Positions 44,552-47,857 of a stretch of DNA of 64,000 nucleotides are shown piece by piece. The notes under the pieces were generated by a model. The model saw only the letters and a program-made list of their open reading frames with translations, did not search any database and was not told the DNA's origin. The translations under genes were made by a program, and so were the position numbers. This DNA comes from Bacillota bacterium (lineage in GTDB: Bacteria; Bacillota; UBA994). Numbering within the stretch: position 1 is the stretch's first letter; each line of letters opens with the position of its first letter. The stretch covers positions 1 to 64,000 of the forward strand of contig JAGXTJ010000055.1 in NCBI GenBank assembly GCA_018333655.1, written 5' to 3'.

Positions 44552-44675
44552 TATTACGCAACCCTAACGTCTGCTTAATGCCCACAAAACTTCGATTAGC
44601 CATAATTAAGCAAATTGTGATATCATTATTTTGCAGTTCTCGACCGCCCAGTATTATACAAGGAGGGATTCCACA

Positions 44676-46418
44676 TTGAAAATCGGTAAAACTCTAATGG
44701 GACTCACTGCTACCGTCGTCGCGCTCATTCTCTTACTCACCTCACCCCTAACAGCAGCACTCACTCCCGGTGCGACCATGAGCATCGTCCTTGATGGACG
44801 AGCCATTGTCACTGCTACACCTCTTGTTACTGTCAACGACATTATCATGGTGCCTTGGCGCCCAGTCAGTGATGCTATGGGATTAAAGCTTGAGTGGATG
44901 TCGGCCACAAGTACCATTCTGGCCCACGGCCACAATGTGCACGTCATGCTGCGCATTAACGATCGTACTGCGCAGGTGAACGATCGCGCTGTAGCACTAG
45001 ATGCACCACCGCGGATAGAGAACGGCCGCACAGTCGTGCCGCTTAGCTTTCTCAGCAGCTTAGGCTTACGCACTAGGTGGGACAGCGCCTCTCGCACTGT
45101 TTCCATCTTTACCGACCATGGCCCCCGCAATGTTATTTTCATCCATCCCGATGGCGCCTCGCCGTCCTTCTTTGCCGCGGCCAGAATGCTACACTCCGGG
45201 CCCGATGGCGAGCTAAACTGGGACCGGCTTCCGGCTACGGCGGTGTACAAAGGGCACATGCTGAACGAGTTAGTAGGCACCTCAAATGGCGGTGCTGTAA
45301 CACATGCTTATGGCGTCAAAGTGTGGGATGGCTCCTTCGGTATGGATCAGCAGAACGTGCAGATTATTTCGCGCTCCGGTCAACCCCACACCATTTTGGA
45401 AGAAGCAAAGATTGCTGGCTTCTCGGTGGGCATGATTAACACCGGCACGATAACTGAACCTGGTTCAGGCGTGTGGGGTGCCAGCGTTGTCAACCGCGGC
45501 GACCATCTTGGCATCGCTCGCGAGCTTATCATTCGCCCTGACGGCCAACAAATTGATGTTATCTTTGGTGGTGGCGAAGTATGGTTCCTGCCTAACACTG
45601 TTACTGGCCGGCATGGTGTGCGCGGACGGAGGACAGACGGCGTGAACCTCATCAATGAAGCTATCGCCAGAGGCTACCGCGTCATCTACACGCGCGAAGA
45701 ATTGCTAAATCTACCTGTCAATACCACGCGCGTGCTTGGACTTTTTGCCGCCCATGATACTTACAACGACAATAACGAAGAGGCCTCACCACGTTACATA
45801 TATACCGAGGAGCAGCTTCGCGCTGAGGGCCTACCAGACTTCGACCCCAATGCTCCTACCTTTGCCCAGATGATGACGGCAGCGATTCAAATCCTGTCAC
45901 GCAATCAAGACAAGGGCTTCTACCTGGTTGCCGAAGAAGAAGGCACCGATAACTTGGCTAATGGCGCTCTTAATGCCCGTGGCACCATAGAAGCGACCAA
46001 GCGTGCTGACGACGGTATTGGCGTGGCTTTAGAGTTCGCCAAGAGTCATCTCAACACACTCGTCATCACTGCAGCTGATAGCGAGGCGAGCGGCCTCTCC
46101 ATTTTGGGGAACCCCGTTCTTGACGCCGCAGGCAATGTGGTACCTACACAAGTGTTACGTAACCGCGCCGGTGAAATATACTTCACCGAACTGCTTGATG
46201 GCAGAGACGGCACTGGTACACCGCCCTTTATGTCCGCACCCGATCGCAATGGCCGCCGCTTTCCTTTTGCCATAGCATGGTCATCGCGCTGGGACCACTC
46301 TGGCAGCATAGTAACGCGCGCCTTTGGCCTACACTCTGACATGGTGAGTGGAACTATCGACAACACCGATATCTACCGTATTAAGTATCGCGCTCTCTTT
46401 GGTCGCTTGCTGCCATAA
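44676..46418 (+). CDS. Secreted alkaline-phosphatase-family protein with copper-amine-oxidase-N-like domain
   Basis: A 580-residue exported protein. Signal peptide to about residue 29, then a copper amine oxidase N-terminal-like beta domain (MVPWRPVSDAMGLKLEWM ... VVPLSFLSSLGLRTRWD, about 30-150), then an alkaline phosphatase fold: HPDGASPSFFAAARM, SNGGAVTHAYGVKVWDG, FYLVAEEEGTDNLANG, LVITAADSEASG and WDHSGSIVTRAFG. Some metal-ligand positions differ from PhoA (TADHE is AADSE, RIDHxxH is GTDNLAN). TTG 44676 has AAGGAGG upstream. Probable phosphomonoesterase or phosphodiesterase at the cell surface. Confidence 0.85.
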   Translation: MKIGKTLMGLTATVVALILLLTSPLTAALTPGATMSIVLDGRAIVTATPLVTVNDIIMVPWRPVSDAMGLKLEWMSATSTILAHGHNVHVMLRINDRTAQVNDRAVALDAPPRIENGRTVVPLSFLSSLGLRTRWDSASRTVSIFTDHGPRNVIFIHPDGASPSFFAAARMLHSGPDGELNWDRLPATAVYKGHMLNELVGTSNGGAVTHAYGVKVWDGSFGMDQQNVQIISRSGQPHTILEEAKIAGFSVGMINTGTITEPGSGVWGASVVNRGDHLGIARELIIRPDGQQIDVIFGGGEVWFLPNTVTGRHGVRGRRTDGVNLINEAIARGYRVIYTREELLNLPVNTTRVLGLFAAHDTYNDNNEEASPRYIYTEEQLRAEGLPDFDPNAPTFAQMMTAAIQILSRNQDKGFYLVAEEEGTDNLANGALNARGTIEATKRADDGIGVALEFAKSHLNTLVITAADSEASGLSILGNPVLDAAGNVVPTQVLRNRAGEIYFTELLDGRDGTGTPPFMSAPDRNGRRFPFAIAWSSRWDHSGSIVTRAFGLHSDMVSGTIDNTDIYRIKYRALFGRLLP

Positions 46419-46445: not shown

Positions 46446-46489
46446 AAGGAGACGGACTAAGTCCTTTCGGACAGGTCCCGTCTCCTTTT
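46446..46489 (+). terminator. Rho-independent terminator of the phosphatase gene
   Basis: AAGGAGACGG pairs with CCGTCTCCTT, with a second inner GTCC/GGAC pairing, and TTTT follows. It lies 28 bp after the stop codon. Confidence 0.85.
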
Positions 46490-46563: not shown

Positions 46564-46851
46564 CTACAACTGGTTTAAGTATTTTTTGGCGTAGCTCACT
46601 GCCTCATCGGTGCTGACGCCCTGCTCTACCGCTTGTCTCACGGCACTTTCCAAGAGACAGGCCACCATTGTCAGCCCTACCTGTTCTACAGCGGCCTTAA
46701 GAGCGGCCACTTGGGTGACGACATCCTCACAGCTTCTGCGTTCCTCTAGCATGCGCTGGAGGCCCCTCGCTTGGCCTTCAATGCGCCGCAAGCGCATTTG
46801 CAAGTCGGGCATGGCTTTCTCCAGAATTTCGGCGTTGGTCGTGGACACCAT
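46564..46851 (-). CDS. CsoR/FrmR family metal- or thiol-sensitive repressor
   Basis: A 95-residue all-helical DUF156 repressor: LQMRLRRIEGQARGLQRMLEERRSC, then DVVTQVAALKAAVEQVGLTMVACLLESAV. The classical copper site C-H-C is altered: Cys41 is kept, the His position is Leu66 and the last Cys is Ala70, while a new Cys65 appears. This is closer to the dithiol, sulfide-responsive CstR idea than to a copper sensor. The ATG at 46851 has GGAGG eight bases before it. It faces a thioredoxin-reductase-like gene over a shared operator. Confidence 0.88.
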   Translation of the reverse strand: MVSTTNAEILEKAMPDLQMRLRRIEGQARGLQRMLEERRSCEDVVTQVAALKAAVEQVGLTMVACLLESAVRQAVEQGVSTDEAVSYAKKYLNQL

Positions 46852-46887
46852 GATGAACACCTCCAAAAATGCTTTGTAGCAGTAAAT

Positions 46888-46916
46888 TTGTTGTTGACTA
46901 CCCCTGTGGGTATAAT
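46888..46916 (+). promoter_or_regulatory. Promoter with CsoR-type operator upstream of the flavoprotein gene
   Basis: TTGTTG (46888-46893), 17 bases, and a perfect TATAAT (46911-46916). The spacer and -10 contain TACCCCTGTGGGTA (46899-46912), the pseudopalindromic TACCC..GGGTA motif typical of CsoR/CstR operators, so the adjacent repressor should block this promoter. Confidence 0.75.
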
Positions 46917-46999
46917 ATATCCTCTATCTTAGATGTGGTTAAGCCTTGCGTTCATGATATCACTTTGTAATAAATTGCGAAAGCCGAGGTTTTTTCGAG

Positions 47000-47857
47000 A
47001 TGGAGAGTTTTGATATTGCCATTATTGGGTGTGGACCAGCGGGGCTGTCGGCAGCGATAAATGCCAAGATACGCGGCAAGAAAGTGCAAGTTTTCGGGGC
47101 AGAGGTCTGTAGCCCAAAACTTGAGAGCGCGCCTTGGGTAGAAAACTACCTTGGCCTCCCCCTCTCGGGGTCTGAATTAGGGCAACGCTACTTAAAACAT
47201 TTTACCGACATGGGGCTGACTATCCACCGCCATAGAGTAGATACCATTGTCTCAACAGGGACCGGTTTTATGTTGGCAGCCAAGGGCGAAATCTATGAGG
47301 CCCGCAGCTTAATTCTCGCCACGGGCATCTCACAAACAAGCTACCTACCTGGAGAACGCGACTTTGTGGGTCTTGGCGTAAGTTACTGCGGAACATGCGA
47401 TGGTCCTCTCTACAAAGGCAAGGTAGTTGCGGTGGTGGGCTACACCAGTGAGGCAGTAGAGGAAGCCAATTTTCTCGCTACGATTGCGGCCAAGGTCTAC
47501 TTCATTCCGCAGAACATACCTTTTGCGGATATTCATGACGACATAGAAGTGGTGCCCGGCAAGCCTATCGGCATACTAGGCGAAGACCACCTAACCAAGC
47601 TGGCGCTACGCGACAGAGAACTACAAGTAGATGGCGTGTTTATTTTCCGCGAGGTAACACCGGTGGAGCAACTACTCACTGACTTAGCCCTCTCGCAAGG
47701 AGCTATTGACGTCGACCGACAGATGGCCACGAATATTCCTGGCGTTTTCGCCGCCGGTGACTGTACCGGACGCCCCTTTCAGCTCGCTAAAGCAGTAGGT
47801 GAGGGGGCAGTCGCCGGTCTTAGTGCGGCCTCTTTTCTCGATAGAAAGCCACGCTAG
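47000..47857 (+). CDS. NAD(P)/FAD-dependent oxidoreductase, thioredoxin-reductase-like
   Basis: A 285-residue flavoprotein with FAD motif IIGCGPAGLSAAINA, the redox CxxC in SYCGTCDGPLYKG, a degenerate pyridine-nucleotide motif VVGYTSEAVEEANFL, and the C-terminal FAD motif GVFAAGDCTGRP. It is smaller than standard thioredoxin reductase and has an altered NADPH loop (GYTSE in place of GxGxxA), so electrons may come from another donor such as ferredoxin. The ATG follows GAGG ten bases upstream. It is expected to be controlled by the divergent CsoR-type repressor; its end overlaps rtcB by 4 bp. Confidence 0.88.
   Translation: MESFDIAIIGCGPAGLSAAINAKIRGKKVQVFGAEVCSPKLESAPWVENYLGLPLSGSELGQRYLKHFTDMGLTIHRHRVDTIVSTGTGFMLAAKGEIYEARSLILATGISQTSYLPGERDFVGLGVSYCGTCDGPLYKGKVVAVVGYTSEAVEEANFLATIAAKVYFIPQNIPFADIHDDIEVVPGKPIGILGEDHLTKLALRDRELQVDGVFIFREVTPVEQLLTDLALSQGAIDVDRQMATNIPGVFAAGDCTGRPFQLAKAVGEGAVAGLSAASFLDRKPR

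Follow-up and report, generated by a model that had tools for sequence, protein, structure and literature searches.

In a 64,000-nucleotide stretch of the genome of an anaerobic member of the Bacillota (hereafter the window), a gene for a 95-residue CsoR-family repressor and a flavoprotein gene are arranged divergently, 148 bp apart (Table 1). Between them lies the candidate operator TACCCCTGTGGGTA, which lies in the spacer of the putative promoter facing the flavoprotein gene and overlaps its TATAAT hexamer. This bears out the claim of an earlier note on this DNA that a palindrome covers the -10 region of the divergent promoter. A consensus scan picks a slightly different promoter pair, TTGACT at 46894 and TATCCT at 46923. 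The hairpin and T-run downstream of csoR, a feature that the listing of the consensus scan does not contain, probably terminate both csoR and the convergent phosphatase-like gene. The latter, a large alkaline-phosphatase-like gene (44631-46418), sits between a MoaD-like gene and csoR, where one of the two sister genomes described below (L035) has a transposase gene.

Table 1. Coordinates of the features at the csoR/flavoprotein locus of the window.
Feature	Position	Strand	Basis or remark
Probable csoR terminator (hairpin, then T-run)	46446..46489	.	Sequence and RNA fold
csoR-like repressor gene (C41/C65 two-Cys site, no His)	46564..46851	-	ATG at 46851; 95 aa
Ribosome-binding site of csoR, GGAGG	46860..46864	-	Read from sequence
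Putative FFTR promoter: -35-like TTGTTG (46888-46893), 17 nt, -10 TATAAT (46911-46916)	46888..46916	+	Read from sequence
Candidate operator, TACCC-N4-GGGTA (TAC-X8-GTA), 14 bp	46899..46912	.	Sequence; conservation in sister genomes; enrichment near related csoR genes
FFTR (ferredoxin-dependent flavin thioredoxin reductase) gene, assigned by sequence	47000..47857	+	Full-length PDB matches; no GxGxxA/HRRxxxR
Codons of the CGTC redox motif (residues 130-133)	47387..47398	+	Sequence

The repressor matches Pfam family PF02583 with 75.2 bits (E 5.6e-21; curated cut-off 22.8), which places it in the CsoR/RcnR superfamily, and scores far under the cut-offs of the NCBIfam FrmR and RcnR models. C41 and C65 are the sole cysteine or histidine residues of the protein. 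In alignments to solved CsoR and CstR proteins, C41 falls on the conserved first cysteine and C65 on the residue immediately preceding CsoR His61 (CsoR position 60), with leucine at the His61 position and alanine at that of the second CsoR cysteine, Cys65. The earlier note had described a repressor that keeps its first cysteine, has lost the histidine and second cysteine of the copper site and has gained Cys65 one position away, and the alignments agree on each point. Only C41 thus remains of the Cys-His-Cys site that binds Cu(I). The two-cysteine arrangement of CstR (C31/C60, CsoR positions 36 and 65) is likewise absent, the second cysteine being at position 60. FrmR, RcnR and InrS differ in combining Cys35 with His or Glu second-site residues. 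The 11 orthologues compared, which represent two families and five genera within the class, all retain both cysteines of the window protein.

An AlphaFold2 monomer model (mean pLDDT 85.7) predicts the three-helix CsoR fold and has InrS, CsoR and CstR as its best PDB matches (TM about 0.7-0.77). In helix 2, C41 is placed at the beginning and C65 beyond the midpoint. An ideal-helix calculation puts an angle of about 100 degrees between the direction of C65 and that of His61. Because of this direction, and because C65 is off the second-cysteine position of CstR, a bridge between C41 and C65 of a neighbouring protomer (C65') is hypothetical, the model being of a monomer only. The geometry of such a link makes the shifted-cysteine variant worth a structure.

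The partner flavoprotein had been described as thioredoxin-reductase-like, and the likeness to a reductase holds while the type can now be specified. Its best PDB matches, 6gna, 6gnd and 6gnc, extend over the full length (E 4e-82 to 4e-80), and the next thioredoxin reductases follow at 4e-41 or weaker. These entries are titled 'Thioredoxin reductase'; we take them to be clostridial FFTR structures. Against the NADPH-type model TIGR01292 the protein reaches 195.7 bits, below the cut-off of 343. It retains CxxC as CGTC, as the earlier note had stated. Comparison with the NADPH-dependent paralogue encoded in this genome (L102) shows GYTSEA in place of GGGDTA and FIPQNIPF in place of HRREKFRA. Clostridial FFTRs are recognised by the loss of GxGxxA and HRRxxxR (PMC10880999); with ferredoxin as their electron donor, they are unable to use NADPH (PMC12796991). 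By the criteria of sequence, namely full-length similarity, a preserved CxxC and absent NADPH motifs, the flavoprotein is an FFTR, and this identity explains the missing motifs. The altered NADPH loop that had caught attention is therefore real but is a hallmark of the FFTR family and not an oddity. A damaged NADPH thioredoxin reductase was ruled out as well, since the full-length FFTR matches account for the missing motifs. With the Clostridium FFTR (6gna-6gnd) the window protein shares full-length alignment, CxxC, the lack of both motifs and a short length. The two differ in their presumed control: the window FFTR would stand under the adjacent CsoR-family gene, whereas the C. difficile FFTR-trxA operon depends on sigma-B (PMC10880999).

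The surroundings of the locus, including AOR, MoaD-like, RtcB and RNase H genes, recur in two congeneric relatives (L034 and L035, with 80% identical proteins). In both, the gene order is FFTR, TACCCTACGGGGTA, trxA, a gene for a 484-residue protein and csoR; around the operator, their sequence can be aligned with that of the window. The interval between csoR and FFTR thus holds trxA and a protein with NapH-like 4Fe-4S and FAD/NAD domains. In the window genome, homologues of both (trxA 61% and the 484-residue protein 60% identical) lie together on the same contig, 108 kb away. The simplest reading is that the window lineage lost the two genes from this interval; a gain in the sisters is the less favoured alternative. 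Fusions of 484-494 residues, joining a NapH-like membrane 4Fe-4S part to a ferredoxin-reductase FAD/NAD module, accompany trxA or csoR with the same operator in several genomes (L035 4516-5970; in the window genome C55:156629-158080, corresponding to L095 5600-7084). They are possible electron donors of the thioredoxin system.

The 2.2-Mb genome contains three exact matches to TACCC-N4-GGGTA, two of them between genes. The sites lie in the csoR/FFTR promoter region, at the distant trxA and inside an MFS gene. The trxA site, TACCCTAGGGGGTA, is 19 nt upstream of trxA, just past a TTGACA-17-TAAACT promoter. Assuming uniform placement, the probability that the csoR/FFTR and trxA regions would each receive a site by chance is about 2e-8. 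Since the pattern is found only three times in 2.2 Mb and gene pair and site are conserved in two sisters, the association of site and gene pair exceeds chance. The site also precedes trxA or the gene for the 484-residue protein in G007, G004 and G005, but the exact N4 form was not found in G003 and G006. Four genomes of another family in the class also carry it, three in front of trxA-csoR and one upstream of csoR, and a rhodanese gene is present in several of these cases. Rhodanese adjoins csoR only in this sister family, and the regulon we infer for the window comprises FFTR and trxA. Across 12 genomes the N4 pattern gave 35 sites and the reversed control 30, which is no clear excess, and for this reason total counts were dropped as evidence and only positions are regarded as informative. 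Most of the other N4 sites inspected were within genes or in hairpins. The intergenic TACCCTCCCGGGTA (G005:C79:12538-12551, L217) is flanked by one gene for a GltD-like oxidoreductase and another that resembles cysteine synthase; this genome encodes a shifted-cysteine CsoR. A hairpin-like palindrome with 12-bp arms and an X8 core, TTTAATATACCCCGCAGGGTATATTAAA (G004:C16:8878-8891, L127), is found between genes about 4 kb from an FFTR gene.

The adjacency of repressor and FFTR could in principle be accidental, with the repressor acting on an unlinked target and FFTR expressed constitutively. At most FFTR loci examined in the phylum a csoR neighbour is indeed absent, which fits such a reading. 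Nevertheless, synteny and operator are conserved in the sisters, a second operator stands at trxA, and the three genes have come together independently in two distant families, as a trxA-csoR-FFTR operon with TACCCCGTAGGGTA (G393) and as a csoR-FFTR-trxA operon (G125). We consider accidental adjacency highly unlikely. Literature searches, which covered mainly openly accessible papers, returned no report of a CsoR paired with thioredoxin or FFTR.

We surveyed 93 Bacillota CsoR-family loci, picked by similarity to the shifted-cysteine group, together with as much as 4 kb of flanking sequence in either direction. By site class they comprise 22 shifted-cysteine, 41 Cys-His-Cys and 24 Cys-Cys repressors without the histidine, along with 6 others. 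An immediate same-strand trxA neighbour was present at 20 of the 93 loci and in all three site classes, and CopA-like neighbours at six. A tree was computed without the site columns; it is based on few columns and leaves many forks open. One branch with support of 96/98 separates a copper group of 29 rows, six with CopA, from a group of 63 rows that includes the window and has no CopA (p 7e-4). FFTR, trxA and rhodanese genes are associated with the window's own clade (6 rows, support 99/96), and those CstR-type rows that have rhodanese arrays are likewise placed on the window's side of the division. trxA also neighbours some csoR genes of the copper clade. The shifted-cysteine state requires at least four changes on this poorly resolved tree. 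At two loci (L160 and L193, genomes G188 and G346) a shifted-cysteine csoR is found near genes for a small MvhD-like protein and a 900-residue HdrA-like protein, together with a TusA-like gene at L160 and X8 operators in the gap at L193. These neighbours possibly link the shifted-cysteine repressors to persulfide or heterodisulfide metabolism.

Operator length follows the same division. Exact sites near surveyed csoR genes were of the N4 type (X8, 14 bp) in 35 of 35 cases on the non-copper side and of the N5 type (X9, 15 bp) in 5 of 5 cases in the copper clade (p 1.5e-6), and with one mismatch allowed near the csoR start and one best site per locus the ratio of X8 to X9 was 35:1 against 0:11 (p 7e-10); both p-values overstate independence because the rows are related. 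An operator site was present at 14 of the 22 shifted-cysteine loci and in about 1% of shuffled windows. Published sites are in line with this division: copper CsoR sites read TAC-X9-GTA (PMC3902906), and ScCsoR, a sensor of sulfane sulfur (persulfide), binds ATACC-n6-GGTAT, which equals X8 (PMC7533328). We restrict the length rule to the surveyed Bacillota, since an X9 site occurs at a Chloroflexi locus (L039) that combines a shifted cysteine with a neighbouring trxA. Within these limits, a 14- or 15-bp operator offers a simple sequence test of whether an uncharacterised Bacillota CsoR serves thiols or copper.

Both lengths occur in the window genome, X8 at FFTR/csoR and trxA and X9 at copA. 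The copA site, TACCCCCACTGGGTA, is located 23 bp before copA on another contig, and both sisters also have X9 at copA. It likely belongs to a Cys-His-Cys CsoR paralogue encoded on contig C8, which groups with the CopA-linked rows. This paralogue (G000:C8:23769-24026; L001, L102 13767-14129) lies between a Fur-like gene and an NADPH-type thioredoxin reductase with SelA/SelB-like genes, an arrangement also seen in both sisters. Both thioredoxin reductases of the genome therefore have a CsoR-family neighbour.

The copper sensors of G. thermodenitrificans (4m1p), S. lividans (4adz) and M. tuberculosis (2hh7) share with the window repressor the PF02583 fold, the first cysteine and an operator with G-tracts and TAC/GTA ends. 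In contrast to them, the window protein lacks equivalents of His61 and Cys65, has a 14-bp instead of a 15-bp site, falls outside the CopA-linked clade and has no copper genes in its predicted regulon; neither copA/copZ linkage nor an X9 operator was found for it. The change in residues does not by itself exclude copper, because a two-cysteine site can in principle bind Cu(I), and linear binding by two cysteines is known, for example, from CueR. It is therefore conceivable that a protein with the CsoR fold senses Cu(I) through two-coordinate binding by both cysteines and induces thioredoxin because copper damages thiols. However, the repressor stands outside the copper clade on a side of the tree without CopA neighbours, copA carries its own X9 site and a Cys-His-Cys paralogue that groups with the CopA-linked rows is encoded in the genome, so that we regard this reading as improbable. 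A copper sensor was rejected on tree, regulon, operator and residues taken together.

Based on residues, gene order, operators, conservation and phylogenetic side, regulator and target probably form a thiol switch, responding to persulfide or disulfide, that derepresses the FFTR-thioredoxin system. The reduced repressor, a tetramer by homology, would bind the 14-bp operator between csoR and FFTR and cover the FFTR -10 region. It would also bind the second operator at trxA, 108 kb away, and in this way hold the thioredoxin system low. Oxidised sulfur species are expected to react with C41 and C65, which belong to neighbouring protomers in the family, whereupon the repressor would leave the DNA. 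FFTR would then pass electrons from reduced ferredoxin to thioredoxin, which could reduce (per)disulfides and reset the switch. The earlier note had proposed a thiol or persulfide switch and not a copper sensor; tree side, regulon (FFTR and trxA, with rhodanese neighbours in relatives), operator length and the separate X9 site at copA speak for this proposal, with persulfide and disulfide as candidate effectors.

Persulfide or polysulfide is our first choice of effector, held with somewhat less than even confidence. In this narrower form of the thiol switch, C41 and C65' would be joined by di-, tri- or tetrasulfide links similar to those between C31 and C60' of CstR, and thioredoxin and rhodanese would clear persulfides. 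This ranking follows from the persulfide sensing of characterised two-cysteine relatives and from the rhodanese and TusA-like genes found next to relatives. CstR and YrkD (PMC9918477) as well as ScCsoR (PMC7533328) belong to the same side of the family and sense sulfane sulfur through two cysteines. The rhodanese genes of the sister family, the rhodanese arrays beside CstR-type rows and the TusA- and HdrA-like neighbours of shifted-cysteine csoR genes also suggest this effector. The window operon itself, however, is without a persulfide dioxygenase, SQR or rhodanese, and other relatives adjoin AhpC/AhpF and rubrerythrin genes, which point to oxygen or peroxide. These genes form the basis of the other narrower form, a general switch for disulfide or oxygen stress, which comes second and which we consider possible at rather lower confidence. 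Oxygen or peroxide would here produce a C41-C65' disulfide and derepress FFTR and trxA and, in relatives, ahpCF and rubrerythrin. Repressors of the same shifted-cysteine type neighbour ahpF-ahpC (L012/L096) and rubrerythrin (L011), and C. difficile responds to low O2 by inducing the clostridial FFTR/trxA operon (PMC10880999). Those neighbours, however, are found in a sister clade outside the window clade, and the rhodanese neighbours favour sulfur.

The window repressor may work in analogy to CstR in spite of its differently placed second cysteine. It resembles CstR, YrkD and ScCsoR in its fold, first cysteine and two-cysteine site, in an X8 14-bp operator (ScCsoR, PMC7533328) and in the rhodanese neighbours of its relatives. 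It differs from them in a second cysteine located five residues earlier in the helix, with a spacing of 24 instead of 29, and in its likely targets, FFTR and thioredoxin instead of operons for persulfide dioxygenase, SQR or rhodanese. Its operator is of type 2, as opposed to the type 1 operator of RcnR (TACT-G6-N-AGTA). A comparable redirection from copper to sulfur and redox genes is known for TTHA1953 of Thermus thermophilus, a CsoR-like regulator of sox genes (PMC10318464), whose operator, TACNNTACNNNNGTANNGTA, and targets both differ from those of the window.

Clostridial-type anaerobes have many thioredoxin systems whose control, above all that of FFTR, is of interest, and a C. difficile study suggests an uncharacterised common regulator (PMC10880999). 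A CsoR-family thiol switch acting on FFTR and trxA would be a concrete candidate in related anaerobes and an example of a metal-sensor scaffold re-aimed at sulfur chemistry by moving one cysteine. As a tentative generalisation, the thiol-responsive CsoR branch, in which the second cysteine has moved by five residues in the window clade, might be dedicated to the control of thioredoxin systems, ferredoxin-driven ones among them, across many anaerobic Bacillota, and the one-base difference between X8 and X9 might prevent cross-talk with the copper sensor of the same cell.

At three further loci (L129, L130 and L200 in G259, G144 and G282) a csoR gene with an ACHLAD motif, that is, with adjacent Cys and His and no later Cys, faces a gene for a NapH-like 4Fe-4S membrane protein, with X8 operators between the two. 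These genes possibly constitute a third site type.
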